From a virus, in the IMG/VR virus record IMGVR_UViG_3300025913_000004, positions 1 through 63,094 of that record: a DNA stretch of 63,094 nt; one strand, 5' to 3'. The notes below the pieces were generated by a model that had not been told where the DNA came from, ran no database searches, and was given only the letters and a program-made list of their open reading frames with translations. Shown one piece after another: positions 11,309 to 58,501 of this stretch. Position 1 is the first letter of the stretch, and each line of letters starts with the position of its first letter. Made by a program: the position numbers and the translations under genes.

Positions 11309-11330
11309 TGTTGCAAGCAACTACAGTGTA
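11309..11330 (-). promoter_or_regulatory. Candidate promoter (TACACT) with short leader hairpin
   Basis: Minus-strand TACACT at 11330-11325 lies at the very end of the 68-aa gene. It is followed by GTTGC/GCAAC arms and the ribosome site of the 57-aa gene. Would drive the membrane-protein group. Confidence 0.4.
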
Positions 11331-11527: not shown

Positions 11528-11952
11528 TTGTAGAACTCCTTCACTTCTTCGTTGCTCATGGGGCGCCACAGGTCACCCGGCAAGGCGGGTATGGGCTGGT
11601 AGGGCGCGTCCAGGGCGCGCCAACCCCCCTGCGACCACGCTGCGGGCTTTTGCACCGGGCTGTAGCACCTACGGTACCAGCAGTGCTTTTTGATGCTCGT
11701 ATGGGGCGCGGGCTGGGTGTCAACCGACACCCAGCGTCCGTGATCGTACGGATACGCAGTCCTCAGGATCTGAAGAATCACCAGGTCAGCGTTTGCGCCG
11801 CTCTGGTCCGCGATACACCGAGCGGCGCTCAGGGTTAGATTGTACAAGAGTCTCGGGGGAATCAGGGTCACGTCTAGCGGCTTGTTCCCGTGCAGTGCGC
11901 AGTTCATCTCGCGCAGCAGGTCTTGCACGCGCGTGAGCAAGGATGTATTCAC
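11524..11952 (-). CDS. Hypothetical protein (142 aa)
   Basis: GTG at 11952 in a GTGA overlap with the 53-aa gene. The N-terminal half is helical with an ARCIADQSGA segment; the second half is Trp/Pro-rich (KKHCWYRRCYSP). An alternative GTG frame from 11986 covers the same bases, but this frame fits the overlap chain better. Function unknown. Confidence 0.7.
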   Translation of the reverse strand: MNTSLLTRVQDLLREMNCALHGNKPLDVTLIPPRLLYNLTLSAARCIADQSGANADLVILQILRTAYPYDHGRWVSVDTQPAPHTSIKKHCWYRRCYSPVQKPAAWSQGGWRALDAPYQPIPALPGDLWRPMSNEEVKEFYK

Positions 11953-12110
11953 GGGTTGGCACTTTCGGATCTTTTGGATACTTCACTTCTGAGATCCCTA
12001 GAAGAGTCTTGTTGAGCCCTCCACTCGCGTTCGCACTTCATGATTCCGTAGAGCCCCATAACCACGGTTATGAAACACAGCAGCCAAATGAATGCGACAC
12101 ACCAGTGCAT
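11949..12110 (-). CDS. Small single-span membrane protein (53 aa)
   Basis: ATG at 12110 with GGAGG six bases upstream. Residues 3-23 are a transmembrane helix (WCVAFIWLLCFITVVMGLYG), followed by a charged tail. It ends in GTGA with the next gene. Function unknown. Confidence 0.65.
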   Translation of the reverse strand: MHWCVAFIWLLCFITVVMGLYGIMKCEREWRAQQDSSRDLRSEVSKRSESANP

Positions 12111-12142
12111 TGAGTCCTCCGCTCCTCTAAGGTGTCAGTCTC

Positions 12143-35729: not shown

Positions 35730-37030
35730 GCTATAGCATCGTTGGTACGATTACGCCAGCTTGGGACTCTAGCGGCTCGGGTAGCACTGTCCAGAGTGCC
35801 ACCACGGGTCTGCCCGCCTTGCTGACTGGGGACTATGTCATCGTCGCAGTGCCGTACACTGCGGGCAGTGACGCCACGCAAACTGTCACGGATAGTCTTA
35901 GCAATACATACACCGAGGACACGACGGGCCACTTCTGGCTGTCCACCTCGAACAACAAAGGCGCTCGATTCTTCTATTCGAAGGTGACCAACGCAGGGAC
36001 TCCGACATTCATTAAGACCACGGCTGGTGTTTCCTGCACGTTCCTGGGGTGTTTTCCAACTGTCATTCGCGGTCTAACTTCCTCTGCGCTTCAGGTTGTC
36101 GGAGCTTACAAACGCACGGCTGGCGCGCCCGCCACCACTGACGCACTGACTTCTAACGCAGTAACCGTCAGCACGCCGCCCGCAGCGGTGATGTGCTTTG
36201 CGTTCAATTTGGTCGGCAGCAACGGCGCCACGCTGACTGTAGGCACGGGCGAGACGCTGCTACAGACCGGTCAGAAGTCTAATGGTCTTGCTGATTTCGT
36301 TAAGGTAGCTCATAAGAGAGTAACCGCTACTGGCAGCGTCAGCGCGACGTTCACTCCTGCACAGGGGGGTGATGACTGGGTGGCCAATGTCATGGTGTTC
36401 ACTGAACTGAACACTAGTCCATTGATCACGAGTACTAGCACGGCGACTCCGAATTATCAGGGATCGATGACTGTCACGGGCTCCATCTTTGGTAGCACGC
36501 AGGGCATCGGTAACGTGACGCTAGGCAATGTGACTCAGACCAATGGTACCTGGTCTGACACATCGATTCCATTGACGTCGATCTCTCGCGGTACGAATAA
36601 GTACGGCGTTGAGCTTGATCTGATCGTTAACACGAACAGCAATGGAGCGAGCAACACTTACACTGGAGTCACTGCTCTGCTGCCGCAGACGGGATGGTCT
36701 TATGTTGATCTTGGCACTCCCAACACTACTTCTGCCAATCGGATCACTGCTGTAGCGGATTTGGCGTCTGGTGATCAGCTAGCTTATGACAACAAAGGGG
36801 GTCTGGTCACAATCAGCGCAGACGCCACGTTTGTTGCAGATCCAAGTGTTACGTCGTTCAACGTGGAAGCTTGGTTCACTGGCAATGGATGGGGCACAAC
36901 TGCCACTCAGACTCTAGCCTCTGGGGGTATCGTACAGAGCGTTGGCACCATCGCTAAGGCCTCTCTTGTGAGCGTGGGGGGTATTGCCGTGGCATCACTG
37001 GTCGGCGTGGGTGGCGCAAGCTACAATTGA
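35726..37030 (+). CDS. Beta-rich tail appendage protein (434 aa)
   Basis: ATG at 35726 overlaps the previous stop. Thr/Ser/Gly-rich; residues 1-230 resemble a concanavalin-like adhesive domain (YVIVAVPYTAGSDATQTVTD; FTPAQGGDDWVANVMVFTEL). The remainder holds Ig-like segments. The C-terminus is a short hydrophobic repeat (GTIAKASLVSVGGIAVASLV). Binding function inferred from neighbours. Confidence 0.78.
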   Translation: MSYSIVGTITPAWDSSGSGSTVQSATTGLPALLTGDYVIVAVPYTAGSDATQTVTDSLSNTYTEDTTGHFWLSTSNNKGARFFYSKVTNAGTPTFIKTTAGVSCTFLGCFPTVIRGLTSSALQVVGAYKRTAGAPATTDALTSNAVTVSTPPAAVMCFAFNLVGSNGATLTVGTGETLLQTGQKSNGLADFVKVAHKRVTATGSVSATFTPAQGGDDWVANVMVFTELNTSPLITSTSTATPNYQGSMTVTGSIFGSTQGIGNVTLGNVTQTNGTWSDTSIPLTSISRGTNKYGVELDLIVNTNSNGASNTYTGVTALLPQTGWSYVDLGTPNTTSANRITAVADLASGDQLAYDNKGGLVTISADATFVADPSVTSFNVEAWFTGNGWGTTATQTLASGGIVQSVGTIAKASLVSVGGIAVASLVGVGGASYN

Positions 37031-37037
37031 CGGCACC

Positions 37038-39107
37038 ATGACGCCGTTCTTCTCGTTCGTATTCAGTCGTCTTGTCAGACCACAAGCGGTCGCGCTCTCC
37101 TTGCAGCCGGTAATTTTGTCTACGCCAGTAATCGGGCAGCCTCTAAATTACACAATTCCTGGATATGCAGGACCGATTACATCTCAGCAATGGTACTGGA
37201 ATACGGGGTCTGGACCAGTACTGATCCCTGGCGCCACCGGGTCTACGTATACTCCGAGCCTGACAAGTGCACGTGGCGGTGCCACAGACGTCGGTGGCTT
37301 TGCGAGCGTGTCCGTGACGACTCCTTACGGAACATTTCGTAGCCAGGAGTTCAGTGCTACCGGAACAGTCATATCTCAAACTGGCGTTCTGACCGTCTCG
37401 TCTCCCACGTCAGGAAATAACTTTATCGCCACAGAAGCGACTACGATCACTATTCTGACTGTCTGCGTCGTTCGCTTGGTCTGTCCTCTAGGACCGAATC
37501 CAACATTCTACATTGAGACGACTGTTGCGCCCGGCACTTACGCAGGAGGCACCAGCTTCTTTGGTGATCCGAGTCTATTGGGCGGAACCCAGTTCAGTTC
37601 CAATGTCTACTCCCATCTTTCTCTTGCTCCCGCAGCGTGTATAGACCAGGTAGCTGCGAAGCCTGCCACAGCCACTCGTCCAGGCACCAGCACGGGGGCT
37701 GGGTTCTTTACGAAGAATGGGGGCATTTATGACGCCAACGGTAATCTGTTCGTTGGTCGTGGATTGAACCGTCTTCACTGGGACTGTAATCGTCCTGGCA
37801 ACGACACGGGTCTGTTCAACGCAAAAGCCAACACGCATAGACTATTTATCGATACATCTCAGAACTGGCTCTCAGTCAATAAGCCGTTGATTGACGCTAT
37901 GATTTCTAATAGCGTCGTGCCTCACATTGTCATTCCCTATGTTCGTGCGAACTTTGAGGCCACGTTCTCGGGCACGACCATGACGGTGACTACTATGAAC
38001 TCAGGAGTCATTGCGTGCGCTAATTCGTTCAGCGCTGGAGCTGGAGGTGGATTTGTATCTACCGGAGTATCTGGCGCTACAGTAATCAAGGCTCAACTGA
38101 CAAACACGAACGGCAGTGGCATTCCTGGCAAGGAAGGAACGTACACCACGAGCACTTCCAATAGTATCGCCACGCCACAGAATGTTGTCTACAGTAATGG
38201 CACCACAGGACAGACCGCCCCAGACTTTGCCATCGCAGCAGCTCAAGTTTGGGTGGATAACTTCAGTAATTTCGGTGGCTACGAACGCTGGATGATCCTT
38301 AATATCATCAATGAATGGGGAGCTTCCGCCAATACCTACACGGCATCGTTCAGCGGCACTACGATGACTGTTCCCTCTTCGTCTGCTACGGTGTACATCG
38401 GTCAGGTGCTCAACGGGCCAGGGCTCACCGCCTGTACGGTGACCGCGTTTGGCACGGGCACAGGGCATGCTGGCACGTACACGGTGAGCGTGAGCCAGCC
38501 CACGTTGACGTCCATTACGGTGACTGACTGTACCTGGAGAGAGACCAACATTACCATGGTTCAGATGCTGCGCACGGCGGGCTATCGTGGTCTTATCGTC
38601 ATTGACGCCCCCGGTAGTGGACAGGACGCCCCCACTACAGGACGTGCGTGGACCATTATCAATCATGCAGCGGCGATCAAATCGGCTGATCCCCAGCAGA
38701 ACATTGCCATTGAACTCCATGCCTACGGTTCGTATGGAGCGGGTCAGCTGGCCACTACAGCACAGGCTTTGGCGAGCGCTGCGGTCTCCCTGGGCATTCC
38801 TTACGGAATTGGAGAATTTGGTCCAGCTAACGAGAATGCTGCCTCTGGTTCTATCACCACTGCTCAGACACTAGAGATAATTTCTGTGGCGTTCGCTTGC
38901 GGTCTGAGTTGGAAGTATTGGGCGTGGGATGATCCAGTGACGGCGTCTAATCCATTCACTACCTACTACGCTGCCTGTCTTCAAGCGAATAGCAACTACT
39001 ATTCCACTCTAGATCGGACTCAGCTGACCCTCGCTGGGCAGCAGCTTCTTCTGGATAGTACATACGGATTGAACACGACTGCGGTAGCCGCGACTGTGTT
39101 CCCATAG
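37038..39107 (+). CDS. Tail-spike enzyme with a GH5-like catalytic barrel (689 aa)
   Basis: ATG at 37038. Residues 1-215 are beta-rich virion-side domains. From about 228 the sequence follows a GH5-type barrel: YDANGNLFVGRGLNRLHWD, then a strand VPHIVIPYVRA, acid/base Glu426 in LNIINEWG, a strand GLIVIDAPG, His561 in ELHAYGSYG, nucleophile Glu593 in IGEFG, and a final strand with WKYWAWDDP. Two segments (about 307-386 and 433-497), each starting with FSGTTMTV, interrupt the barrel. Likely cleaves a beta-glycan on the host surface; the substrate is unknown. Confidence 0.85.
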   Translation: MTPFFSFVFSRLVRPQAVALSLQPVILSTPVIGQPLNYTIPGYAGPITSQQWYWNTGSGPVLIPGATGSTYTPSLTSARGGATDVGGFASVSVTTPYGTFRSQEFSATGTVISQTGVLTVSSPTSGNNFIATEATTITILTVCVVRLVCPLGPNPTFYIETTVAPGTYAGGTSFFGDPSLLGGTQFSSNVYSHLSLAPAACIDQVAAKPATATRPGTSTGAGFFTKNGGIYDANGNLFVGRGLNRLHWDCNRPGNDTGLFNAKANTHRLFIDTSQNWLSVNKPLIDAMISNSVVPHIVIPYVRANFEATFSGTTMTVTTMNSGVIACANSFSAGAGGGFVSTGVSGATVIKAQLTNTNGSGIPGKEGTYTTSTSNSIATPQNVVYSNGTTGQTAPDFAIAAAQVWVDNFSNFGGYERWMILNIINEWGASANTYTASFSGTTMTVPSSSATVYIGQVLNGPGLTACTVTAFGTGTGHAGTYTVSVSQPTLTSITVTDCTWRETNITMVQMLRTAGYRGLIVIDAPGSGQDAPTTGRAWTIINHAAAIKSADPQQNIAIELHAYGSYGAGQLATTAQALASAAVSLGIPYGIGEFGPANENAASGSITTAQTLEIISVAFACGLSWKYWAWDDPVTASNPFTTYYAACLQANSNYYSTLDRTQLTLAGQQLLLDSTYGLNTTAVAATVFP

Positions 39108-39142: not shown

Positions 39143-40696
39143 GTGGTTTGGTCTGTTCATAACTCTCAGTGCAACGAATCTAAGAAGATTGTTTGGGAAG
39201 TGGCCCCGTACCTTGCAGGTCGGGGCCTTGACCTAGGCGCAGGTGATTTTCGCATCCTGCCGCATGCAATCACCGTAGATAACATGCACCACGCGATGTT
39301 TGGCTTCAATCAAAAGCCAGACGTGATGTGTGATGTAGAAGATCTGAGCCTCTTTGGCTCACAGTCCATGGATTTCGTGTACAGCAGCCACACGCTGGAG
39401 CATATTCTGGACTACAAATCTGCTCTGAAGGAGTGGTGGCGCATCGTTAAGGTCAAGGGCTATCTGATCCTGTACCTGCCGCACAAGGACCTCTATCCCA
39501 ACATGGGGGAGAATGGATCCAATCCAGATCATAAACACGACTTTGTGAACCAGGACATCATTGACGCAATGATGGAAGTTAGCGGGTGGGACCTCATCGA
39601 GAACCAAGTTCGCGATGAGGATGAAGAATATTCTATGCTGTTGATCTTTCAGAAGAGAGGAGATAAACGGCATACTTGTCCGTATGAGGATGAAAAGCCA
39701 GCCAAGACCGCCTGCGTGGTGCGCTACGGCGCGTTTGGCGACCTGATGCAGGCCAGTAGTGTGTTCGCCGGGTTGAAGGATCAGGGCTATCACGTCACTC
39801 TCTTCGGCAGCAACCCCCAGGCAGAGGTTGTCAAGCACGACCCCAACATCGACAAGATTGTTCTATTTGATCGTGATCAAGTACCCAACGCGGACTTGGT
39901 GAGCTTCTGGCAGTGGCAGAAAAAGAAGTACGACAAGTTCGTCAACCTTAGCGAGAGTGTGGAGGGCACACTGCTGGCCATGCCGGGTCGGACGCTGACG
40001 TACTTTCCTCCCGCAGCGCGCCACACGCTGATGAACTTCAACTACCTGGAGCTTCAACATGCCTTGGCTGGGCTTCCTCATAATCCCCAAATCCGTTTTT
40101 ATGCTACCCAGGAAGAACTCCGATGGGCAGAAAAGGCGCGAGAGAAGTGCGGCCCCGGGCCAGTCGTTGTCTGGGCGCTGGCTGGCAGTAGCGTCCACAA
40201 GACGTGGCCGTATATTGACAGTGTCATCGCGTCTATCATGCTCAAGTATCCCACGGCGCGTGTCGTTCTTACAGGGAACGAAGCGTGTCAAATCCTTGAG
40301 CAAGGCTGGGAAAACGAACCACGTGTCATCCGCACGAGCGGCAAATGGACGATCCGTCAAACCCTGGCATTCCAGAACTACGCGGATTTGATCGTTGGTC
40401 CTGAGACTGGTACGCTCAACGCGGCGGCATGCTCTCCTGTTCCCAAAGTGGTTCTGCTATCCCACTCCACACACGACAACCTCACTCGTGACTGGAAAAA
40501 TACAACCGTGCTGCATGCCAAGGACACGAAGTGCAAGGGCCGGGGAGAAAACGAGGCCCCCGCATGCCACATGATGCACTACAATTGGGACAACTGCACT
40601 CGTACCGAAGACGGTGTGGCTCAGTGCCAAGCTGACATCTCTGCTCAGACTGCGTGGATCCAGATCGAGAAGATTCTAGATAAGGCCCTTAAATGA
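39143..40696 (+). CDS. Fusion of SAM methyltransferase and GT9 heptosyltransferase
   Basis: GTG at 39143 with AAGGAG upstream (517 aa). Residues 1-165 are a class I methyltransferase: motif I LDLGAGDF (about 29-36), an acidic VDNM strand, DFVYSSHTLEHI and a WWRIVKVKGYLILYLP strand. Residues about 188-517 are a GT9 domain: RYGAFGDLMQASSVFAGLKD, then WALAGSSVHKTWPYI and the family signature GPETGTLNAAA (about 419-429), ending in a Cys/His-rich tail. Known GT9 enzymes use ADP-heptose. It overlaps the neck gene (ATGA), so it is expressed with virion proteins. It likely transfers, and methylates, a heptose; the acceptor is unknown. Confidence 0.87.
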   Translation: MVWSVHNSQCNESKKIVWEVAPYLAGRGLDLGAGDFRILPHAITVDNMHHAMFGFNQKPDVMCDVEDLSLFGSQSMDFVYSSHTLEHILDYKSALKEWWRIVKVKGYLILYLPHKDLYPNMGENGSNPDHKHDFVNQDIIDAMMEVSGWDLIENQVRDEDEEYSMLLIFQKRGDKRHTCPYEDEKPAKTACVVRYGAFGDLMQASSVFAGLKDQGYHVTLFGSNPQAEVVKHDPNIDKIVLFDRDQVPNADLVSFWQWQKKKYDKFVNLSESVEGTLLAMPGRTLTYFPPAARHTLMNFNYLELQHALAGLPHNPQIRFYATQEELRWAEKAREKCGPGPVVVWALAGSSVHKTWPYIDSVIASIMLKYPTARVVLTGNEACQILEQGWENEPRVIRTSGKWTIRQTLAFQNYADLIVGPETGTLNAAACSPVPKVVLLSHSTHDNLTRDWKNTTVLHAKDTKCKGRGENEAPACHMMHYNWDNCTRTEDGVAQCQADISAQTAWIQIEKILDKALK

Positions 40697-43482: not shown

Positions 43483-43677
43483 ATGACCGAACACGAGCAA
43501 ATTATGCGCAGAACGGCCTGGGACATGTATTTCTCGTCTGTTGTGACGATGAGTCTGCATCCTGGCACTAGTCGGGAAAGCGCCGTTAAGCGATCGGTTG
43601 CGGAATGTGCTGTCATTGCCGATGAAATGCTCGCTGAACGAGATAAGAGATTTGTCGATGAGCATCAAACTTCTTGA
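43483..43677 (+). CDS. Hypothetical helical protein (64 aa)
   Basis: ATG at 43483 directly after a predicted promoter. Helical ([20 protein letters not shown]), with charged ends. Overlaps the oxygenase gene by 20 bp. Function unknown. Confidence 0.7.
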
Positions 43678-44191
43678 TCGTAGCTGGCCAGTCAGCGAAA
43701 TCTATTGGAATCTCCAGCAGCATCCGGAGTTCTGGGATGAACACACTTCCCGTACCTCGCACCCCAGCAGCCCGCACTACGGTCTCAGTGACATCTGGGC
43801 GCGATTTGGTCCCCCTTCCGCCGCTGAAACGGGTGTACCCCACGAGTCGGTGTGGTATCCTAGCGCTGAAGTGCTTGGCATCAAGCCTCTGGTGGGCCTT
43901 CTTATGAACTGCGTCGATGGGAAGGAACTTGGCGGTGTGTTGATCACCAAGATCCCACCGGGCAAGGAAGTTCGTCCCCATACGGATCCTGGCTGGCACG
44001 CGCGCTACTACGAGAAGTACGCTGTTCAGATCACCAGCGCTCCCGGTCAGAAATTCTGTTTTGAAGATGCAGAGCTTGAATCTCGTCCTGGCGACGTGTA
44101 CTGGTTTGATAACCAGTATCTGCATTGGGTGGTGAATCCTACTCCGTACGAGAGGATTACCATGATTGTCTGTATTCGTGGAGGTAATTGA
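43658..44191 (+). CDS. 2OG-Fe(II)-type oxygenase / Asp-Asn hydroxylase-like (177 aa)
   Basis: ATG at 43658. Metal triad visible: His108-x-Asp110 in [14 protein letters not shown] and His156 in YLHWVVN, with the 2-oxoglutarate-binding Arg166 in [22 protein letters not shown] precedes the second His as in aspartyl/asparaginyl or prolyl hydroxylases. It lies between tail and ejection genes, so it may hydroxylate a virion protein or a modified nucleotide or sugar. Substrate not inferable. Confidence 0.82.
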
Positions 44192-46869: not shown

Positions 46870-48633
46870 ATGGCGACGTACAAGTTTGAACTTGATGGTA
46901 AGCAGCACTCGTTTACGACGGATCACGAGCTGTCGGATGAAGAACTGTCTTCTGCTATCGGTCAACTTTCTACGCCCGAAGCTACTAAAGCCAGTGCGGC
47001 GCCCGCCAAGTCCGCAGCTAAGGAAGATCCGTACGAAAAGAGTCGAGATAAGAACCCGACTCTAGATCGTATTCTTGGCGATCCAGAGGAAGGAACGGGG
47101 GACTTCCTAAAGAATCTTGGCAATTCCATCGGCGCCAACACTGCACGTCTTGCGGCGGGCGCGGGTCAGCTCTATGAAGAGGGAGTGAATTATCTCGGCT
47201 CCAAGCTGGGTGTGCCGGAAGATAAGCAGACCCACGTTGCCGCTCAGATTGGCGATCGTGCCACGGCTGTAGCCAACGATGTGGCACGGCGAGACCCACT
47301 CGCTGCTGTTGCAGGAGCTACCGTTCCCATGGCTGCGGGTGGGGCCGTTACCGCGCCCGCGCGTGCTGCGACCGCCCCAGGGCGCATTGCGCAGGCTGCT
47401 GGAGCTGGTGCCCTGGCTGGCGCGGCGGAGCCCGTACCCAGCGGTGAGAGCGTTGGGCAGGGCAAGATGCGCAACATGGCTGAGGGCGGCATCATCGGTG
47501 GTACCGTAGCCAGCCTGGGAGAGGCCGGTAGCGCGATTAAGAACAAAGCCAGCCAGATCATCTTCGGACATACTGGCGGGATGAACAGCCCGGTGCGCGC
47601 GCTGGCTGACAAGGCTGAGCAGATGGGCTTTAAACTCAGCCCGCAGCAGAAGCGAGAAGATAGCGGTCGTCTGCAAACTGCGGGTCTAGGATTTGCTGAT
47701 CGGGAGAATAACACCTTCGTAGCTAATCGGCAGGCCAGCCGCGCCACTGGTGAGCAGACTGATCGCATTACAAGTGAATACATCGGGGAACGATACAAGG
47801 ACCTGGGCGCGCAGTTTGATAAGATCTACGAACCCGGTAAGCAGTACAAGATCGACGCCTCGGTGCTGCCTGGACTGCAAGAGATGGTGCAGGGTGAGGC
47901 GAATGTGGGCCGCCCATTCGCAAGCTCTCCCGCGATACAGGCTGCAAACAAGATTCTCACCTCGTTTGGCGTAGTGCAGAATGCATCTGGTCTTGGTAAG
48001 GTCACGGGCATGAAGGTGGATGCCGAAGACATCCAACGCCTGCGCGATCAGGTCAGCAAGCTGGCGTACAAGACGCAAGACCCGTACAAGAAAGACGCGA
48101 TGATGGAGGTGGTGCACGCCATCGACAAGTCCGTCGAGAAGAACAATCCAGAGGTTGCCGAAGCGCTGAAGGAACTGCGCCCCAAGTATCGTGCGCTTTC
48201 CACGCTTGACACCTTGTCTAAGAGCGGCGGCATTGATCAGAACGGTAATCTCAGTCCTGCCAAGCTGGGCGAATATCTTCGTAAGAAGGATCCCAACTAC
48301 ACCAAAGACAAGTCTACTCATCCTCTGGCAGAGCTGGGTGAGCTGGGTGAAACATTCGGCATTCGTGGCATGGGAGAAGCTAACATCGTGGGCGGTGGCA
48401 CTACAGCCCGCGCCCGTCCTGAGGACATTGCCAGTCATACGGGTCGTATCCGCATGGCCATGGAGCACGCGCGTGACCTGCCTGGGGTCAAGCAGTCTCT
48501 GGAGCAGGGGTATCAGAACAAGATCTACAGCATGACTGGATACGGACTTAGTCAAGAAGATTTGAGGGCGATTAACGCTACGCAGATGGCCATGCAAGAC
48601 GAGGAGCGGAAGCGTGAAGCTACTAATCGTTGA
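46870..48633 (+). CDS. Internal virion / DNA ejection protein (587 aa)
   Basis: ATG at 46870. The N-terminal 35 residues resemble a small domain seen in phage internal proteins (YKFELDGKQHSFTTDHELSD). Residues about 130-220 are Ala/Gly/Pro-rich and hydrophobic (AVAGATVPMAAGGAVTAPAR; AGAGALAGAAEPV), fitting a membrane-interacting segment. The remainder is helical. Third of the ejection trio. Confidence 0.78.
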   Translation: MATYKFELDGKQHSFTTDHELSDEELSSAIGQLSTPEATKASAAPAKSAAKEDPYEKSRDKNPTLDRILGDPEEGTGDFLKNLGNSIGANTARLAAGAGQLYEEGVNYLGSKLGVPEDKQTHVAAQIGDRATAVANDVARRDPLAAVAGATVPMAAGGAVTAPARAATAPGRIAQAAGAGALAGAAEPVPSGESVGQGKMRNMAEGGIIGGTVASLGEAGSAIKNKASQIIFGHTGGMNSPVRALADKAEQMGFKLSPQQKREDSGRLQTAGLGFADRENNTFVANRQASRATGEQTDRITSEYIGERYKDLGAQFDKIYEPGKQYKIDASVLPGLQEMVQGEANVGRPFASSPAIQAANKILTSFGVVQNASGLGKVTGMKVDAEDIQRLRDQVSKLAYKTQDPYKKDAMMEVVHAIDKSVEKNNPEVAEALKELRPKYRALSTLDTLSKSGGIDQNGNLSPAKLGEYLRKKDPNYTKDKSTHPLAELGELGETFGIRGMGEANIVGGGTTARARPEDIASHTGRIRMAMEHARDLPGVKQSLEQGYQNKIYSMTGYGLSQEDLRAINATQMAMQDEERKREATNR

Positions 48634-49924
48634 TACTGACTGCTGTGGACTGAGCTTCGCACTGCGCGCGCAGGCCGCAGGTCACGAGGTGAAGTGGTTC
48701 ATCAAGAAGAAACCTTCCGTCCATGAAGAAGTGGGTCAGGGCTTTAAGGGAATCACTAAGGTAGACAACTGGCTCAGTCATGCGACGTGGGCAGACCTGA
48801 TCTTCTGCACGTCTAATGATGACTATCTTGAGAAGCTGGCACTGCTTAAGAAGAAGGGATTCCCTGTCTTTGCTCCTAGTCCTGAGTCGGCAAATCTAGA
48901 AATCACCCGACAAGATGGACTGAAGATGCTGGAGTCTGTGGGCATTGAATGCGCCCCATATAAGACGTTCCCCAACATGCGCGCAGCAGAAGCCCACGTG
49001 AGAAAGACTGGCGAGCGCTACGTGTTTAAGACTCTGGGCGATAATGAGGACAAGTCGCTCACCTATGTCAGCAAGTCTCCGGCCGATTTGATTGCTTGGA
49101 TGCAGCGCACGCCGCCACCCAAGGGTGAGGTGATGCTACAAACCTTCATCCAGGGAATTGAGATGGGGGTTAGCAGATTCATGGGCAGTAAGTCGTGGGT
49201 CGGTCAGTGGAACGAGAGCTTTGAGCACAAGAAGATGATGTCGGGCAACTACGGCCCCAACACGGGTGAGATGGGCACAGTGGCCTATTTCACTGAAACG
49301 AGCAAACTGGGATCAGAGACTCTGGGCAAGCTGGAGAAGCAGCTACTGTCGCTGGGGCATGTGGGCGACGTCGCGCTGGGGTTCATCATCGATGAGAAGG
49401 GCAAGCCCTGGCCCACGGAATGGACGTGCCGCTTTGGCTGGCCGATTGCAAACATGATGCTGGGGGCCACTAAGGGCGATCCTGTCCAGTGGATGCTTGA
49501 TGCGATCAACGGCAAAGATACTACTACTTTCAGTGAAGACATTGGTGTCTGTCTGGTTCTTGCTCATTCTGATTTTCCTCATGATAACGCTCCTCCTGAT
49601 GCTGTGGTTGGAGTCCCGGTCTACGGAGTGACGAAGGGGAATCAGAAGCATCTGCATCCACAGCAGATTATGATGAAGAAACTGCCCAACATGAAGGGCG
49701 ACAAGATGGTGGAGGAGAATATGTGGGCCACAGCAGGCAGCTACGCCACGGTCATCACTGGCTTTGGTGACAGCGTCAAGCAGGCGGCGACCCGAGCGTA
49801 CAAGACTGCCAAGGAACTACACATCGCCAACCCCATTCTTCGAGACGATATTGGAGAGGGATTGAAAACACAGTTGCCCGAGCTGCATAAGCTGGGGTAT
49901 GCTTTGCACTGCAACTACTCGTAA
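48614..49924 (+). CDS. ATP-grasp enzyme, PurD (GAR synthetase)-like (436 aa)
   Basis: GTG at 48614, overlapping the ejection gene by 20 bp. The ATP-grasp layout is visible: N-terminal KLLIVDTDCCGLSFALRAQA, ATP site YVFKTLGDNEDKSL, EVMLQTFIQGIEMGVSRFM, then GFIIDEKGKPWPTEWTCRFG. Against PurD the Glu of the metal site is kept but the Asn is Thr and the NxRFGDPE signature has become TCRFGWPI, so the substrate may differ from glycine/phosphoribosylamine. A ligase acting late in infection; substrate unknown. Confidence 0.8.
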   Translation: MKLLIVDTDCCGLSFALRAQAAGHEVKWFIKKKPSVHEEVGQGFKGITKVDNWLSHATWADLIFCTSNDDYLEKLALLKKKGFPVFAPSPESANLEITRQDGLKMLESVGIECAPYKTFPNMRAAEAHVRKTGERYVFKTLGDNEDKSLTYVSKSPADLIAWMQRTPPPKGEVMLQTFIQGIEMGVSRFMGSKSWVGQWNESFEHKKMMSGNYGPNTGEMGTVAYFTETSKLGSETLGKLEKQLLSLGHVGDVALGFIIDEKGKPWPTEWTCRFGWPIANMMLGATKGDPVQWMLDAINGKDTTTFSEDIGVCLVLAHSDFPHDNAPPDAVVGVPVYGVTKGNQKHLHPQQIMMKKLPNMKGDKMVEENMWATAGSYATVITGFGDSVKQAATRAYKTAKELHIANPILRDDIGEGLKTQLPELHKLGYALHCNYS

Positions 49925-51559: not shown

Positions 51560-52013
51560 TGCGATCCTAGATGGGATTACCTCCATTGTTGCCACCCCTG
51601 GAGTTGAGGGGCTCGTGCTACATCCATACCTGGACTCAGTGGGGGTTCCAACCATCGGTCGTGGCACGACTATTTACCCCAATGGCGTACGAGTTACACT
51701 CCGTGATCCCTCCATCACGGTTGCGAAAGCTGACTTGTACGTGCGGGATCACCTTGTCCGGCGCACCCTACCTGCTGTGCTGCGGCTGTGCCCCACGCTG
51801 CAGACGGAGGCTCATTTTATCGCTATCGGCGACTGGACCTACAATCTCGGTGAAGGCAAGCTCAAGAACAGTACGCTTAGACAGAAAATCCTAGCCAGGG
51901 ACTGGAATGCCGTACCCACCGAGATCGCTAAGTGGATCTACGGCGGGGGCAAGGAGCTGGGCGGTCTAAAGCGCCGCCGCGCACTGGAAATACTGGCTTG
52001 GCAAGGGGCCTAG
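51543..52013 (+). CDS. Endolysin, GH24 lysozyme
   Basis: ATG at 51543 (156 aa); a longer in-frame start at 51510 would add 11 residues. Catalytic triad as in T4 lysozyme: Glu22 in GVEGL, Asp31 in HPYLDSVG, Thr37 in PTIGRGT, with T4 spacing (9 and 6). There is no signal peptide, so export depends on the holin. Cleaves peptidoglycan at the end of infection. Converges (4-bp overlap) with the minus operon. Confidence 0.93.
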   Translation: MPLDVDAILDGITSIVATPGVEGLVLHPYLDSVGVPTIGRGTTIYPNGVRVTLRDPSITVAKADLYVRDHLVRRTLPAVLRLCPTLQTEAHFIAIGDWTYNLGEGKLKNSTLRQKILARDWNAVPTEIAKWIYGGGKELGGLKRRRALEILAWQGA

Positions 52014-52198
52014 GACCAATCGAACAGGTCCTGCGCGCTCCGGTAGGCCCACAGCCCCCATAGGGGTACCAGCAGCAGGTCCAACGCGGTCGAAAACCGC
52101 CTATCGACGCTGTAGTCGTACCACGCGCACCAAGCCATGAATATCAGAGCTGCTATTTGAAAGATGAACGCAGCCCAGGTCAGTTGTCTGTTGGTCAC
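52010..52198 (-). CDS. Small membrane protein (62 aa)
   Basis: GTG at 52198 in a GTGA overlap with the gmhB-like gene. Two hydrophobic segments (WAAFIFQIAALIFMAWCAW; LDLLLVPLWGLWAY). Last gene of the minus operon; its end overlaps the lysozyme gene, leaving no room for a terminator. Function unknown. Confidence 0.7.
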   Translation of the reverse strand: MTNRQLTWAAFIFQIAALIFMAWCAWYDYSVDRRFSTALDLLLVPLWGLWAYRSAQDLFDWS

Positions 52199-52692
52199 TT
52201 AAACACTCCTTCCTTGACGAGATTCCACAGCCCGTCACTGTTGCGGTCGATCTTGAACCCGCGAATCTTGGCGTTGCGCCCCGCCTGCATGTCGTCCCAC
52301 TTGTCGCCCACCATGGCGCAGAGGCGATTCCGCTCCAGCTTCATGTCTCGGAACGCCTGTAGGATCATACCTGGGCGTGGCTTGCGGCACTGACACAAGT
52401 CCTCGGGACGGTGCGGGCAGAAATAGATTCTATCTATTTCTGCGCCGTAGTCATTCCAAAGCTTGTCCTTCATGACGCGGTTCTGCTCCTCGAACTCTCG
52501 TAGCAGCAACTCCCCCCGTCCCATGGCCGCCTGATTGGTACAGACTACGATCTCGTATCCCAGCACGCGCAGCTTGCCTAGCGCGTCACCCACGCCGGGC
52601 AGGATAGAGATCTCCTCGGGATGCTGCGGACGGCCAATGTCCTGAATGAGCGTGCCATCACGGTCTAGGAATATTGCTTTGGTTCGTTGCAT
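52195..52692 (-). CDS. gmhB: D-glycero-D-manno-heptose-1,7-bisphosphate 7-phosphatase
   Basis: ATG at 52692 (165 aa). HAD phosphatase: nucleophile motif FLDRDGTL (Asp10, Asp12), motif II VCTNQAAMGRG, and a late motif GDKWDDMQAG. A zinc-type insert CPHRPEDLCQCRKPRPGM (C-x-H ... C-x-C) is the hallmark of GmhB rather than histidinol phosphatase with other inserts. It would remove the 7-phosphate to give heptose 1-phosphate. Overlaps the nucleotidyltransferase gene by 35 bp. No catalytic residue is missing. Confidence 0.88.
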   Translation of the reverse strand: MQRTKAIFLDRDGTLIQDIGRPQHPEEISILPGVGDALGKLRVLGYEIVVCTNQAAMGRGELLLREFEEQNRVMKDKLWNDYGAEIDRIYFCPHRPEDLCQCRKPRPGMILQAFRDMKLERNRLCAMVGDKWDDMQAGRNAKIRGFKIDRNSDGLWNLVKEGVFK

Positions 52693-53131
52693 GAAGAATC
52701 TTATTGATCATGTCTGTGGTAGACACGCCCGGTAGCCGTGGGATGCTGAGCACGGCAAAGCCCTTCTTGATTGCCCATTGAGCCTCGGGGCCATCTAATC
52801 CAGATTCTGCGTCCTTGGCGTACACGACAGAATGAGAGACATTCTCAGTGATGTCTCTTTCAAACGCGATCACTGGACTGCTACAAGGCCTCACTGTGTA
52901 GGTGCAGTGCCCGCCCTTAAAGAGCAGATCAAAAAACTTGACAAGCTCTTTAGTCCGATCATTCTGGCTGATGATCGGACGCATGGAACCCTTCATGCGA
53001 CGTACAGATGCATCATCGTTTACGTACACCATGAGATGGTCTCCACCTTCCATGTGCCACGTCAGCTCTTGGAAGAAGTGACGATGACCTTCATGAAGAA
53101 GGTCAAAGCACCCATTAGTGACATAGATCAT
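52658..53131 (-). CDS. hldE2: Heptose-1-phosphate adenylyltransferase (HldE C-terminal half)
   Basis: ATG at 53131 (157 aa). Cytidylyltransferase-like fold: TNGCFDLLHEGHRHFF (Asn6, His13-x-x-His16) is the nucleotide-binding HxGH motif as in HldE, and VYVNDDASVRRMKG is the second strand and loop. Expected to join heptose 1-phosphate and ATP to give ADP-heptose and PPi. In E. coli this domain is fused to the kinase; here it is a separate gene. Confidence 0.87.
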   Translation of the reverse strand: MIYVTNGCFDLLHEGHRHFFQELTWHMEGGDHLMVYVNDDASVRRMKGSMRPIISQNDRTKELVKFFDLLFKGGHCTYTVRPCSSPVIAFERDITENVSHSVVYAKDAESGLDGPEAQWAIKKGFAVLSIPRLPGVSTTDMINKILHATNQSNIPRP

Positions 53132-53735
53132 CGATTACCTCGCAAATGCTGTGATACACGATCTGATGCAGCGTCTGCACCAGTGCGGTCTCGGTGGCGG
53201 GGACGTTCAGTGTAAGGTCAGAGTGAGCATGAAGCTTGCACTGCATGACCCCAGTCATCCCCACTACCGTGATGCCCATGTTCTGCGCGCACTGCGCGGC
53301 ATGTACCACGTTCGGACTGTTGCCGCTCGTACTGATGCAGATCAGTACGTCTCCTGACTGACCCAGCGCGGCCACCTGTCGTTCAAACACGTGGTTGAAT
53401 GAGAAGTCATTGGCGCAGGCCGTGAGAATCGCTTGGTCTGCAGTCAGTGCCATGGCGCTCAGAGGCTCACGATTCTTGGCGTACCGTACCACCAACTCGG
53501 CCGCGAAGTGCATGGCATCTGTGGCACTTCCACCATTGCCGCAGATCATCACCTTGCTGCCCTCCATCATGCGCTTGTGCATGAGCTGTGCCACGGTAGT
53601 GATCTCTTCGTGCAGTGTGTGGCCGAACATGAGAGCGTTGACCGCCCCGTAAGCCCTCCCCATGGCTTCCTTAACAATCTGTCGGCACTTATCCCTATCA
53701 GACTGGGACGGCAATCCGGTGCTTCCTGCACTCAT
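53115..53735 (-). CDS. gmhA: Sedoheptulose-7-phosphate isomerase
   Basis: ATG at 53735 (206 aa); a longer in-frame start at 53834 would lie deep inside the kinase gene. SIS domain: CGNGGSATDAMHFAAELVVR with the catalytic Glu80, ISTSGNSPNVV as the phosphate loop, and His190 in VQTLHQIVYH, matching Glu65 and His180 of E. coli GmhA. Converts sedoheptulose 7-phosphate to D-glycero-D-manno-heptose 7-phosphate. Overlaps both neighbours (38 and 17 bp). Confidence 0.9.
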   Translation of the reverse strand: MSAGSTGLPSQSDRDKCRQIVKEAMGRAYGAVNALMFGHTLHEEITTVAQLMHKRMMEGSKVMICGNGGSATDAMHFAAELVVRYAKNREPLSAMALTADQAILTACANDFSFNHVFERQVAALGQSGDVLICISTSGNSPNVVHAAQCAQNMGITVVGMTGVMQCKLHAHSDLTLNVPATETALVQTLHQIVYHSICEVIDDLCH

Positions 53736-54570
53736 CAAGAGTCTCCTGTAGTGTGATGGGACGGACACCTTCGTATTCGGTGCCCAGACCGGCGATGACG
53801 TTGGCAATGCGAGCTGCGTGCAGCAGCATCGCACCCTTCACAGCCCAGAATACGGCTAGTGCAGCAATCACCTGATCGCCCGCGCCCGTGGGATCAATGG
53901 TCTCCCTCTGCCAAGCGGGAATCTTCTCTCCATTCAAGACCATTCCTGCTGCGCCATGAGTTACCAACACGTTGTCAATGTTGCAGGGAATCATGAGAGT
54001 CATCATCTCCATGATGTTGGGCTTAATGACAGTGGCTCCCGCGTACTTAGTCCAGTCCCTGCCCTTGGGGTCTACGATCACCGGCACGTTCAGTGACCGT
54101 GCATGCTCAATCATCTTCTGCGGACGAGCTAGCACGCCCTTGCCGTAGTCGCTCAGCACCAGACACTCCACCAGACCTGTGTCCAGAACAGATATCACAT
54201 CTTTATCAAGCGAGTCCAGAACGTGATCAGACTCTGGGCCACGGTCAATGTCGTAGCGCATGAGCATCTTGCTACCCAGCATGACGCGGGTCTTGCACGT
54301 GGTCTCGCCATCGCTGGCATTCCACAGGACGTCGATGTCAGTACATTCACCCATCAACGTCTGGCTCGTGGGGTCTAGCCCACAGGTGGTCATCACCTGA
54401 ACTTCCTCCCCCAGCGCCATGATGCACCGGGCCACGTTCATGCAGCCACCGGGCATGAATCGCATGGACTGGTGCGTGACCACCGGGGTGCCGGGCGACT
54501 CGGGAGCATCTCTTGTGGACTCTACGTGATCGTAGATGTCCAGCATTGCATCTCCAACGACAAGAATCAC
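53698..54570 (-). CDS. hldE1: Heptose-7-phosphate kinase (HldE N-terminal half, PfkB family)
   Basis: ATG at 54570 (290 aa). PfkB/ribokinase fold: VVGDAMLDIYDHVESTRDAP at the start (as LIVGDVMLDRY of HldE), MPGGCMNVARCIMALG, and signature 2 DPTGAGDQVIAALAVF (about 228-243) with the catalytic Asp. Phosphorylates heptose 7-phosphate at C1 (beta), which leads to ADP-heptose, not to the GDP-alpha route. In the same operon as gmhA, hldE2 and gmhB. No epimerase (hldD) is seen nearby. Confidence 0.9.
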   Translation of the reverse strand: MILVVGDAMLDIYDHVESTRDAPESPGTPVVTHQSMRFMPGGCMNVARCIMALGEEVQVMTTCGLDPTSQTLMGECTDIDVLWNASDGETTCKTRVMLGSKMLMRYDIDRGPESDHVLDSLDKDVISVLDTGLVECLVLSDYGKGVLARPQKMIEHARSLNVPVIVDPKGRDWTKYAGATVIKPNIMEMMTLMIPCNIDNVLVTHGAAGMVLNGEKIPAWQRETIDPTGAGDQVIAALAVFWAVKGAMLLHAARIANVIAGLGTEYEGVRPITLQETLDECRKHRIAVPV

Positions 54571-54773
54571 TTCAGGGTCTCCAGCAGCGCGGCTGCCATG
54601 CGGATCTCGCGAGCGGTGACGCTGCCCACGGTACCAATGTCGATGATGAAGCTGTCTGGGATCTTGTCAGACAGACTAGATCTTAGCTTTGCTAGGGGTC
54701 TGAGATTCTTGATCAGCTGTCTGCGCTCGATCGATTGTCGCTCATTGCCGCCACACATGGGGCATTCGTTCAT
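54567..54773 (-). CDS. Small CxxC protein (68 aa)
   Basis: ATG at 54773, ATGA overlap on both sides. MNECPMCGGNERQ begins with a Cys-x-x-Cys metal-like motif; the rest is helical (TAREIRMAAALLETLK at the end). Joined to the heptose genes by overlap. Function unknown. Confidence 0.7.
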   Translation of the reverse strand: MNECPMCGGNERQSIERRQLIKNLRPLAKLRSSLSDKIPDSFIIDIGTVGSVTAREIRMAAALLETLK

Positions 54774-55281: not shown

Positions 55282-55806
55282 TCAGGTGCAAGCCCGGAGT
55301 TGGCCCGGGTCCTGGTCTACATAGCCATGCCCAGCGTGCCCGGAGTCCGGCACGGACGCTTTCGATGGCGTGGCGGCGCATTGGTAATGGTGCTTTGTTA
55401 GCTCTCCCAAGAATTGGGGCTGTAGCCGATAAGTATGACGGCATTTCTTGCATTGATACAGATTCGTACCATCTCCGTAGTAACCTTCCACAGTGAATGA
55501 GTCCGGAAACACAGGAACTTCACCAATCTTAGCTCCAGACTCGGTATACACAAACTTGTTCCCGTAGATCTTCGGCTCTTCCTTCTCGGGCGGAGGATAC
55601 ATCTTGTCGTAGACTTCCAGATACTTCTCGATGAAGTGCTTGGCCTTCTCCAAGTCCTGCTTGCCGTGCTTCTTGCGACAGCGGGTCACGTACTTGGTGA
55701 TCTGCGCTTGGAAGTAGTCCAGATCATTTGCCACTACGTAGTCCCAATGTTGAATGCCGCTGGCGTAGTGATCACCGCCGATTTGAGTCTTGTTTGCGTT
55801 AGACAT
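55282..55806 (-). CDS. DUF3310 protein with C-terminal zinc motif (174 aa)
   Basis: ATG at 55806 with AGGAG upstream, overlapping the thymidylate-synthase-like gene. Residues 10-66 match DUF3310 (GDHYASGIQHWDYVVANDLD; FQAQITKYVTRCRKKHGKQD then LEKAKHFI), a family common in phages near nucleotide metabolism. Residues 119-143 add CKKC ... HHYQC, a metal-binding pattern not usual for the family. The last 30 residues are Gly/Asp/His-rich. Function unproven. Confidence 0.82.
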   Translation of the reverse strand: MSNANKTQIGGDHYASGIQHWDYVVANDLDYFQAQITKYVTRCRKKHGKQDLEKAKHFIEKYLEVYDKMYPPPEKEEPKIYGNKFVYTESGAKIGEVPVFPDSFTVEGYYGDGTNLYQCKKCRHTYRLQPQFLGELTKHHYQCAATPSKASVPDSGHAGHGYVDQDPGQLRACT

Positions 55807-56776
55807 TTTCTCTCCTTTTGATCCAATCGTGAAATCCGAGTTTCCAGTCGCACCACTCGATGCCTGCCAGCGTGTAGGGTCGTCCAGCCTTACGTTCAAG
55901 ATAGGCCCGTTTGAGGGGATCCGCAACATCGCGGATGAAGCGGGTGGCGTAGACGTTTCCTTCTGGCTTGAAGCGCCACGTGAGTTCCTGGCAATCTTCC
56001 AAGAAGTCAGTATAGATTTCATCGTCTGCAACCAGTGGAATGTGGAGATCCTTACCATTACGATAGTGATCTTCCGAGTAGGTGGGTGGGTTGGAAAGGA
56101 ACTCAGCCACCATGGGCACGTCGGTGTAGACGTGGAAGTTGTTGCTGAACTGTCGGTACACGCCCATGGGCAGCCTGATAGCCTGAGCAATGAACTCTTG
56201 CAGGATACTGAAGTGCACGACGTTGGCCCCGTAGGCACCCCACAGCATGTCGTTGCTGCGACAGCACACGGTCATATTCAGCTTCCCACCTCGGCAGTCC
56301 AAGTACAGATGGGTATTGCAGGGGCGATCATTCCACGGATGGGTCGTGAAGTCCAGTAATGGCGCCCACATGGAGATGACCACTTGTCGGGACTTGGGGT
56401 TGCTTTTCAGCTGAAGAATCGTTTCCTCAAGCTGATCCATGTTGAATGCTTCTCTCCAGCGCCATCCATAGGCACCATGCATGTCTAGCTCTTCAGTGTA
56501 GACCGCAATGCGAGGATTAAAGTCCACCAGAGGTGCGACGTTCTTGGCGCCAGTCAGCATCCATAGCGCTTCAAGGAGATGGAACACATGATTGCAATCC
56601 CGTCGAGGCTCAAAGAGAACACGCTCCCAGGGTCGCTCATATTCCGTAACAACTGGTCCAGGAGCCACCAGCACAGGTCCATTTCTAGATTCCTCTCTCA
56701 CACCAGCAGAGCGTAGCCACCACAGCCCGCTTAGGAACGCTTCGTTAACGTTCCGTTCCTTGATTACGTGGGTCAT
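55799..56776 (-). CDS. Thymidylate synthase homologue, probable dUMP hydroxymethylase
   Basis: ATG at 56776 (325 aa). TS-family core: catalytic Cys153 in RPCNTHLYL, the phosphate-site stretch CCRSNDMLWGAYGANVVHFS with Arg173, Ser174 and Asp176, and Asn185, which in TS reads uracil. The wGaYGANvVHFS form is that of phage hydroxymethylases and phage TS variants, not of housekeeping ThyA. A 5-hmdU kinase family gene is immediately upstream, so 5-hydroxymethyl-dUMP is the likeliest product; plain dTMP cannot be excluded. Confidence 0.87.
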   Translation of the reverse strand: MTHVIKERNVNEAFLSGLWWLRSAGVREESRNGPVLVAPGPVVTEYERPWERVLFEPRRDCNHVFHLLEALWMLTGAKNVAPLVDFNPRIAVYTEELDMHGAYGWRWREAFNMDQLEETILQLKSNPKSRQVVISMWAPLLDFTTHPWNDRPCNTHLYLDCRGGKLNMTVCCRSNDMLWGAYGANVVHFSILQEFIAQAIRLPMGVYRQFSNNFHVYTDVPMVAEFLSNPPTYSEDHYRNGKDLHIPLVADDEIYTDFLEDCQELTWRFKPEGNVYATRFIRDVADPLKRAYLERKAGRPYTLAGIEWCDWKLGFHDWIKRRENV

Positions 56777-57609
56777 TGGGTTCCTTGAAACTTGTTACGG
56801 CGATGTCCATTGGGGTCACTAGTCAGCTTGCACCACTTACTGAATTCGCACAGACAGTTCTGAAAGTCCTGCATGTGCAGATTATTACCAAGAGCGTTGA
56901 TGAACGGAGGCATGACCTCTTCGTAGCAGATCTGAACGTACTTGTGATAGTTGTGGACCTTGATGCTACCTTCCGGCGCACCGTGGAAGTACCAGTTCAG
57001 CCCGCGCAGGCTGCCCGGCCCGGGGGTGGACCACGTCATCCAGTCCGCCGCACCCCACAGAGGATGGTCGTAAGTGTTCTTCATGTCTGCAATGACCTGA
57101 CCCGCCAGGAAGCTGCCAAGACCGTCGATCTCGGTTAGAGACTTGAAGCACTTCTCCAGTGAGGCATAGTGGATGCCCCTGCCACGCTCCAATGCGCGCA
57201 CTGCCTCCACCACGTCAAACACGTAGTCAATCTTATCCATCTTCTTGCCGCAGGTGGACACGGTGTACGCGCTGGTGAACACCTTGCAGCCAATGTCGCG
57301 GTACGCCTTCATGACCCCACGCGCGGCGGTCAGATCACCAAGTCCTACGTCCTTCTTGATCCTTTCTAGGCTGTCCGGAAGATTGAACAGCCGCCCCAAC
57401 ACGAACTTCCACGCAGGGTCTAACTTGCCGTTCCACTCTGTACGGAACCACTTCGTCACTCGGTCATCCTCACGACGGACGTTGCAGAATCGGGTGGTTT
57501 GGAACACGGGGTCAATAGACCATGGTGCAGGGGATCCGGATTCCTTCAGAAGCCGGATGCGTTCCCGCTCACGGATCCAATACTGCATCTCATTAGTCAA
57601 GTTCGGCAT
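56773..57609 (-). CDS. 5-hmdU DNA kinase helical / aGPT-pyrophosphorylase family protein (278 aa)
   Basis: ATG at 57609. Family pattern strong: WIRERERIRLLKESGSPAPW, TTRFCNVRREDDRVTKWFR, a middle KVFTSAYTVSTCGKKMDKID, then GPGSLRGLNWYF and a late DFQNCLCEFSKWCKL. This family (HMUDK_hel / alpha-glutamyl-putrescinyl thymine pyrophosphorylase clades) acts on 5-hydroxymethyluracil in DNA in phages with hypermodified thymine. It lies in an operon with the TS homologue (4-bp overlap) and a glycosyltransferase (17-bp overlap). Confidence 0.85.
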   Translation of the reverse strand: MPNLTNEMQYWIRERERIRLLKESGSPAPWSIDPVFQTTRFCNVRREDDRVTKWFRTEWNGKLDPAWKFVLGRLFNLPDSLERIKKDVGLGDLTAARGVMKAYRDIGCKVFTSAYTVSTCGKKMDKIDYVFDVVEAVRALERGRGIHYASLEKCFKSLTEIDGLGSFLAGQVIADMKNTYDHPLWGAADWMTWSTPGPGSLRGLNWYFHGAPEGSIKVHNYHKYVQICYEEVMPPFINALGNNLHMQDFQNCLCEFSKWCKLTSDPNGHRRNKFQGTQ

Positions 57610-58501
57610 GTAACCTCACAACCTGCTTGCGCAGTTCTTCTTCAAAATCTTCTACCCAGAACTGCTGTTCCTGAGCGAATTGTTGCCGCGTTCCCAATAG
57701 ATTAAGACTTCTATCCTTGGTCAGCACGTAGCGGCTGCAGTCGTAGCCGTATTTCGCCAGGGTCTTCACGCTCCCAGGCGTGAAGCACATCGGCAACCCC
57801 GCGCTGAGCATCTCGTAGAACCGAGTGGCGGGGAAGTGGTCCGCGTCCTCGCTACGGTCGTCCTGTGCGTAGATACCAACCCCATGTTGACTGAGTTCCT
57901 GGGTCAGCAACGTGCGGACGGGAGGAACTAGATTGATGCCGGGGATGAGTAGGAACTTGTCGCTGGTGCTGCTGACGGTGACGCTGCCAGCCTCCCGCGC
58001 CATGTAGCGGAATTCCTGCTCCCTGCGCTCGCGGTACGCGCCATAGTAGAAGAAGTCACTGCCCTGGTGCTTGCTGCGGCGGGCGTTCTTGTCAAAGCCT
58101 AGAACATTCCAGTTTACGTGCGCGCTGTGTTGTGTCTTTTCGGAATTCTCACCGCACGTAGTCCAGTAATGAGGCACAAGTCCACGGAGGTTGAACGCAG
58201 CGCGGAAGGGAGATTGTGCCTGACTCTTGGCCTTGGGGGGCGGCAGCGTGTAGTCATTCTGAACCCAGACCACGTTTCGCGACGTTCTAACGAATTCAGC
58301 CAGCTCCGGGAGATACTTACAATACAGCGTGCTGCCATTGACGATGAGGAGATTGTCTACCTTGGATTCCCTGAGAGAAAGTTCTGCACTGTCGTACAGC
58401 GGGGCTCTCAGGGTTGCGGCCAGCCACGTAGCGAGACGTGTGCTGGCGATCGTGCTTGTATGCCGCACGGGGAGCATACTGCACACGACTGTTCTGGTCA
58501 T
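57593..58501 (-). CDS. Glycosyltransferase (GT-B, family 1/CgeB-like)
   Basis: ATG at 58501 (302 aa). The C-terminal half has the donor-site layout of GT-B enzymes: EDADHFPATRFYEMLSAGLP then MCFTPGSVKTLAKYGYDCSR, and a final helical tail. The N-terminal half is acceptor-side (NVVWVQNDYTLPPPKAKSQA). It sits directly before the hmdU-family gene, so a sugar transfer to hydroxymethyluracil DNA is one reading; protein or LPS transfer is another. Donor not visible. Confidence 0.8.
   Translation of the reverse strand: MTRTVVCSMLPVRHTSTIASTRLATWLAATLRAPLYDSAELSLRESKVDNLLIVNGSTLYCKYLPELAEFVRTSRNVVWVQNDYTLPPPKAKSQAQSPFRAAFNLRGLVPHYWTTCGENSEKTQHSAHVNWNVLGFDKNARRSKHQGSDFFYYGAYRERREQEFRYMAREAGSVTVSSTSDKFLLIPGINLVPPVRTLLTQELSQHGVGIYAQDDRSEDADHFPATRFYEMLSAGLPMCFTPGSVKTLAKYGYDCSRYVLTKDRSLNLLGTRQQFAQEQQFWVEDFEEELRKQVVRLHAELD

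Follow-up and report, generated by a model that had tools for sequence, protein, structure and literature searches.

A putative phage-encoded ADP-heptose pathway beside a thymine-hypermodification cassette in uncultured phages

Four overlapping heptose genes on one strand

The stretch of DNA analyzed here, which we call the window, is the entire IMG/VR virus record IMGVR_UViG_3300025913_000004 (63,094 bases). On its minus strand, at 52195-54570, there are four open reading frames (ORFs), each overlapping the next, in the order kinase-gmhA-hldC-gmhB. A reading made earlier from the sequence alone (the sequence-only reading) had described four overlapping genes here as a complete operon for the synthesis of adenosine diphosphate (ADP)-heptose, and the ORFs are exactly where it placed them. 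We set the start of gmhA at 53735 rather than 53834 because a sister phage (G012, 58,964 bases) shows it there; this is most likely the true start, as a conserved ATG with GGAG upstream. With this start, the overlaps between the four genes are 38, 17, and 35 nucleotides (nt).

In searches against NCBIfam, a heptose family was the top match over all other sugar families for each of the four proteins, in agreement with the identities first proposed. The kinase (53698-54570, minus strand) matches TIGR02198 (E 9e-56) with 189 bits, compared with 36 bits for the next sugar-kinase family, and its nearest structure by sequence in the PDB is HldA (4e84, E 4e-29). GmhA, the sedoheptulose-7-phosphate isomerase (53115-53735, minus strand, 206 amino acids (aa)), matches NF010546 (E 1e-55) and TIGR00441 (E 1e-53, 182 bits), and the nearest structures are again heptose enzymes (5i01 and 1tk9, E ~1e-42). 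The predicted heptose-1-phosphate adenylyltransferase (52658-53131, minus strand, 157 aa) matches TIGR02199 (E 6e-19) with 68 bits over residues 2-64, compared with 31 bits for the generic family; profile matches to nucleotidyltransferase structures extend along its full length, and its relatives in three other phages (L044, L055, and L064) match TIGR02199 over the full length of the protein (E ~1e-31). GmhB, the heptose-1,7-bisphosphate 7-phosphatase (52195-52692, minus strand, 165 aa), matches the beta-type model NF006506 (E 8e-39) with 133 bits versus 79 bits for the alpha-type model (E 2.5e-22); 3l8e is its nearest structure (3l8e and 2gmw, E ~5e-25).

None of the four reaches the curated cut-off of its family, which is 345 bits for the kinase, 209 for GmhA (TIGR00441), 181.5 for the adenylyltransferase (these three being equivalog cut-offs), and 178 for GmhB, so we consider all four to be divergent family members. 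We call the kinase HldA-like, with a substrate predicted from its sequence, and the adenylyltransferase HldC-like; the substrate of the latter is the least certain of the four.

The active-site motifs are intact in the alignments, as the sequence-only reading had noted for key residues. The kinase has the GAGD catalytic motif and a DPKGxDWxKYxGA motif aligned to 4e84, and both are kept in nine diverged phage kinases. GmhA has a conserved H-x3-E ... Q-x7-H set in alignments to 2x3y/2xbl, 5i01, and 1tk9, which we take to be the metal-site residues, spaced as in solved GmhA structures. In the HldC-like protein, the HxGH (HEGH), NGCFD, and C-terminal ST motifs are conserved across phages, and GmhB retains DxDxT and the Cys/His metal-site residues in its alignment to 3l8e.

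Taken together, the four profile matches cover every step from sedoheptulose 7-phosphate to ADP-D-glycero-beta-D-manno-heptose, as proposed before, and the block very probably encodes this putative pathway. The beta-type GmhB is consistent with the ADP route and not the guanosine diphosphate (GDP) route. Separate genes for the kinase and the adenylyltransferase are the usual HldA/HldC arrangement in many bacteria, so what had been described as a split HldE is nothing unusual. No HldD epimerase was detected by profile search, either in the window or in 11 related records, in line with the original observation. Compared with the bacterial ADP-heptose pathway (GmhA, HldA/HldC or HldE, and GmhB), the block has all four reactions with their motifs, the beta-type GmhB, and kinase and adenylyltransferase on separate genes; it differs in being phage-encoded, in having four overlapping genes in one block, in scoring under the curated cut-offs, and in having no HldD.

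Conservation and distribution of the set

The genes can be called phage-encoded because the window is a whole virus record and is collinear with the sister phage across nearly the whole genome. The sister keeps all four genes, with 78, 64, 45, and 78% identity in the order given above. Between the two phages, the ratio of nonsynonymous to synonymous substitution rates (dN/dS) is 0.14 for the kinase, 0.33 for gmhA, and 0.07 for gmhB, while in hldC the synonymous sites are saturated. The heptose block is under purifying selection.

The block is directly downstream of a thymine-hypermodification cassette, which consists of a thymidylate synthase (TS) homologue, a HMUDK_hel protein, and a probable DNA glycosyltransferase, each described below. 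We scanned for HMUDK_hel, which gave 80 loci, and found among these the complete heptose set in the same order after TS in G012, L044, L055/L056, L057, L061/L062/L063, and L064; NCBIfam confirms the identities of the set in L044, L055, and L064. In L044, a phage fragment, the gene order is the same at 33-46% identity to the window. In a truncated contig (L236), the first feature is the 3' remainder of a TS gene, and the heptose set comes next. In all, the complete set is linked to the cassette in eight distinct phages including the window, with cassette proteins that are ~50% identical and heptose proteins that are ~32-52% identical; about six of these phages, beyond the window and its sister, are strongly diverged. 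Complete sets are also found outside the cassette, near terminase genes (L237, L242 (G032), and L243), for a total of ~11 distinct uncultured phages. When the kinase alone was used as query against viral contigs, no match was obtained. The kinase tree shows two to three changes in the link to the cassette, and one origin is also possible.

No complete set was found among 50,697 phage records in searches for the kinase, gmhA, and gmhB at E <= 1e-5, hldC not having been searched there. This annotated collection does contain partial sets in cyanophages (nucleotidyltransferase, short kinase, and gmhA), in Caulobacter phage Cr30 (kinase and gmhA), and in unannotated faecal contigs (gmhA and gmhB). 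The sequence-only reading mentioned single heptose genes in phages and left aside whether a full set had been described: partial sets in isolated phages are indeed known, and the complete set recurs in uncultured phages. Its view of a compact operon under selection, as opposed to the chance pick-up of one gene, is borne out by the ~11 phages that carry the set and by the low dN/dS of three of the genes. The analysis establishes the identity of the genes by profile, and with it their intact motifs, selection, synteny, and co-occurrence.

Two candidate users of the sugar

The sequence-only reading, sound as it was on the pathway, was silent about likely consumers of ADP-heptose, and the window has two candidates: a methyltransferase-GT9 fusion and the cassette with its glycosyltransferase (55799-58501). 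The fusion (39143-40696, plus strand, 517 aa) is in the late/tail region and has an N-terminal methyltransferase (PF08241, E 4e-9) and a C-terminal GT9 domain (PF01075, E 8e-4). Heptosyltransferases that use ADP-heptose as donor belong to GT9. The GT9 match is weak in every one of the sequences; in the window, this half scores 19 of 22 bits for PF01075, and TIGR02193 matches at E 3e-5; every NCBIfam match of this half is to a heptosyltransferase model, and the start of the domain aligns weakly to a GT9 structure (3tov, E 0.009). The fusion has relatives in 16 uncultured phages at 36-81% identity and no match in the annotated phage records. Its two halves match at a distance from each other in G018-G023, mostly inside one 740-aa open frame.

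Upstream of the operon and on the same strand are genes for PolA, a PD-(D/E)XK nuclease, an SNF2 helicase, the 57593-58501 protein, HMUDK_hel, and the TS homologue. The TS homologue (55799-56776, minus strand, PF00303, E 5e-20), which is in the cassette of relatives as well, presumably makes 5-hydroxymethyl-deoxyuridine monophosphate (dUMP). The HMUDK_hel protein (56773-57609, minus strand, PF18723, E 7e-34) has the helical domain of 5-hydroxymethyldeoxyuridine (5-hmdU) DNA kinases. This domain stands alone, and no Walker A motif or P-loop kinase was found in the cassette. With its TS homologue and HMUDK_hel/aG-PT-PPlase1 near PolA, the cassette fits the thymidine hypermodification type; the M6/ViI kinase route uses a P-loop 5-hmdU DNA kinase, which the cassette lacks, and we do not claim that step. 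In the sister phage (L028, 2168-2746), we noted by eye an HNH-endonuclease-like gene between TS and HMUDK_hel.

For the protein at 57593-58501 (minus strand), sequence searches of Pfam, NCBIfam, and the PDB found no match, a candidate in the PDB proving to be a chance hit only, and there was none in the 50,697 phage records. An AlphaFold2 model from two sequences was useless, with a predicted local distance difference test (pLDDT) score of 41; when redone with 51 aligned sequences, the model reached a pLDDT of 93. Its GT-B fold is nearest to that of T4 DNA beta-glucosyltransferase (BGT; Z 20.1, 287 residues, 3.6 A), followed by T4 alpha-glucosyltransferase (AGT; Z 17) and the next unrelated glycosyltransferase (Z 16.7), and Foldseek gave E 4e-6 against 1bgt. 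About 90 viral contigs have relatives of this protein, most of them beside HMUDK_hel and TS. Based on the model and its context, the protein very probably acts as a DNA glycosyltransferase; it has a BGT-like fold and represents a new sequence family, and its genomic context predicts as its probable role the glycosylation of a hydroxymethyl pyrimidine in DNA. The cassettes of L055-L064 have a TAGT (PF20691, shown for L055 and L064) in place of the BGT-like glycosyltransferase. A further contig, L165 (95 kb), has a heptose-type kinase, a BGT-like glycosyltransferase, and a TAGT-like protein as tandem overlapping genes in a hypermodification cassette (9105-12114), with the kinase ORF overlapping the start of the BGT-like gene by 4 nt; gmhA and hldC were not found in L165.

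What the heptose may be used for

We propose that ADP-heptose made by the phage serves a phage-encoded glycosyltransferase and not general host metabolism. The main user would be the methyltransferase-GT9 fusion, which may add heptose, perhaps in methylated form, to a virion protein or a host-surface glycan. The D,D-heptose would be used as such, a possibility already raised with the missing epimerase, or first epimerised by host HldD. For the enzyme activities, and for the donor and acceptor of the GT9 protein, we infer function from the genes. We favor the fusion as the main user because the heptose set tracks it. All complete-set cassette records of sufficient length to include the late region have the fusion. 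Among 50 further cassette-bearing records, 14 of which are 59-87 kb long, neither the fusion nor a credible heptose kinase was found (0/50 for each); one 60-position kinase match (E 7e-5) was not counted, and the complete-set records served as the positive control for the query. In G031/G032 (67 and 64 kb), the fusion occurs without HMUDK_hel and the heptose genes are in the late region. Two other contigs without HMUDK_hel have the kinase directly behind the fusion (L046) or shortly before it (L261). The fusion is also conserved, and the set kept, while the glycosyltransferase on the operon side alternates between the unrelated BGT-like and TAGT types.

Several observations weigh against this proposal, and the pathway with the fusion as its main user is a tentative preference. 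The GT9 assignment itself is weak (E 1e-3 to 1e-5, and E 0.009 for 3tov), and the GPETGxLN of the fusion departs from the canonical GT9 motif, D-[ST]-G-x-x-H. G002 (54.9 kb) has the fusion without the heptose set and G013 has it with only gmhA and hldC, so these phages would depend on their host for the rest of the pathway. The operon and the fusion are on opposite strands in the window, where the operon is continuous with the DNA-modification genes, and L165 ties a heptose-type kinase directly to a BGT-like glycosyltransferase. The fusion-bearing phages form one broad lineage, so co-occurrence is confounded by common descent, and many of the compared records are fragments.

Some of these observations point instead to DNA as the acceptor, with ADP-heptose as donor for the BGT-like enzyme at 57593-58501, which would heptosylate hydroxymethyl-uracil. 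The TS homologue would supply hydroxymethyl-dUMP, the base would be incorporated into DNA, HMUDK_hel might help to bind or flip it, and the heptosylated phage DNA would resist host nucleases. The operon continues the cassette on the same strand and in the same order in eight distinct phages, the cassette glycosyltransferase is modelled as a DNA glucosyltransferase with T4 BGT and AGT as its neighbors, and the 4-nt overlap in L165 is inside a cassette. There is also a precedent in RB69, with its candidate uridine diphosphate (UDP)-arabinose module for DNA (PMC6024577). Most cassette phages, in contrast, have no heptose genes, as the 50-record control shows, and therefore the cassette can do without them; there are also complete sets in phages that have no cassette. 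Because of these two results, we give the adjacency less weight as a sign of DNA heptosylation. Two unrelated types of glycosyltransferase accompany the set, L165 is without gmhA and hldC, and the operon is located where the early transcript ends convergently, a site at which cargo may accumulate. T4 BGT and AGT take UDP-glucose, and the model does not reveal donor preference. On balance, DNA heptosylation is possible and somewhat doubtful. It could also be that the two glycosyltransferases draw on the same donor.

The genes might instead top up or time ADP-heptose for host enzymes only, so that the inner core of the lipopolysaccharide (LPS), which is the receptor layer, is preserved or changed during infection. 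Hosts use these same enzymes to build the LPS core, and heptose genes in cyanophages have been reported as LPS-related (PMC7378029). Against this, the set goes with phage glycosyltransferases, and a full de novo set would be odd if the host already owns the pathway. The heptose of canonical LPS is in the L,D form, yet HldD is missing from all 12 records. We consider this use unlikely. Viewed in isolation, the window with its host-like enzymes would suggest that host genes were acquired recently by chance and serve no selected use; this is highly improbable given dN/dS values of 0.07-0.33, the same gene order down to ~33% identity across diverged phages, and an operon GC content equal to that of the genome (0.559). 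The probability remaining after the fusion, DNA, and LPS readings falls to other uses of ADP-heptose.

Comparison with known phage systems

The cyanophage SynMITS9220M01 has been reported to have a kinase, an isomerase, and an epimerase (PMC7378029), and P-SSM2 and S-CAM1 have annotated nucleotidyltransferase-kinase-gmhA clusters. These phages and S-SSM7 resemble the window in that a single phage has a nucleotidyltransferase together with a heptose kinase and gmhA, the genes being adjacent in most cases. They differ in that gmhB was not detected and an epimerase is present, and their clusters are beside tail-fibre genes of T4-like phages with no adjacent hypermodification cassette; in P-SSM2 and S-CAM1, the kinase (~240 aa) and gmhA (~110 aa) are short. 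Caulobacter phage Cr30 has the kinase and gmhA close together, but no hldC or gmhB is annotated nearby, and the neighbors are a GT2 and a UDP-glucose epimerase.

For the cassette, the closest systems are those of M6-like phages and pelagiphages, where TS and HMUDK_hel/aG-PT-PPlase1 form a hypermodification partnership close to PolA, sometimes joined by a glycosyltransferase (PMC9599517). The window shares the TS homologue and HMUDK_hel near PolA; it differs in the missing P-loop kinase, the BGT-like glycosyltransferase of a new family, and the appended heptose operon. Where phages themselves produce the sugar donor with which their DNA is modified, the nearest conceptual precedents are RB69, for which the UDP-arabinose module was proposed, and Thanatos (PMC12838424). 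The RB69 module likewise pairs candidate sugar-nucleotide synthesis encoded by the phage with a DNA glycosyltransferase, but places arabinose on cytosine with other enzymes, whereas the sugar in the window would be heptose, with DNA as a possible acceptor.

The enzymes and partial phage sets were already known; what is new is a complete, recurrent ADP-heptose set coupled to glycosyltransferase genes. Sugar metabolism carried by phages thereby goes beyond partial heptose sets to include the full route to ADP-heptose. Such a phage probably produces the sugar donor itself, for the decoration of its particle, the surface of its host, or its DNA, and tying the route to two phage glycosyltransferases makes it testable which of these is heptosylated. 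DNA heptosylation, if true, would be far more surprising, with the whole donor made de novo and a DNA base bearing heptose. To our knowledge, no phage has been described so far that decorates a DNA base with heptose from a donor made de novo. The neighboring glycosyltransferase, for its part, brings to light a family of DNA-glycosyltransferase-like proteins that is widespread among thymine-modifying phages and does not yet have a name.

Genome context and neighboring genes

The ends of the window (63018 and 54) adjoin in the sister, and the ends of the sister adjoin in the window; no end repeats were recorded. Because the ends of each record are contiguous in the other, both look like near-complete, circularly permuted genomes. 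The window has no tRNA, and host assignment failed. In genome contigs, HMUDK_hel matches were on scattered contigs of metagenome-assembled genomes with no heptose genes nearby, and no host was assigned from them. Consensus promoters and terminators in the window were not above shuffles, so the transcription units are taken from strand and overlap.

Two small genes flank the heptose block on the minus strand. Just upstream, a 68-aa protein with a CxxC motif (54567-54773, 82% identical in the sister) overlaps hldA by 4 nt, and at the other end a 62-aa hydrophobic protein, probably a membrane protein (52010-52198, 60% identical in the sister), overlaps gmhB by 4 nt. A PurD-like ATP-grasp protein (48614-49924; TIGR00877, E 3e-25, under the cut-off) adjoins the late genes, with relatives at 60-89% identity; a role as a purine enzyme is not plausible by context. 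A tail-region protein with a GH5 cellulase domain (36984-39107; PF00150, E 6e-11), with no match in the sister, is possibly a tail protein that degrades host glycans. Also among the tail genes is an aspartyl/asparaginyl hydroxylase-like, weakly LpxO-like protein (43598-44191), which is 84% identical in the sister.

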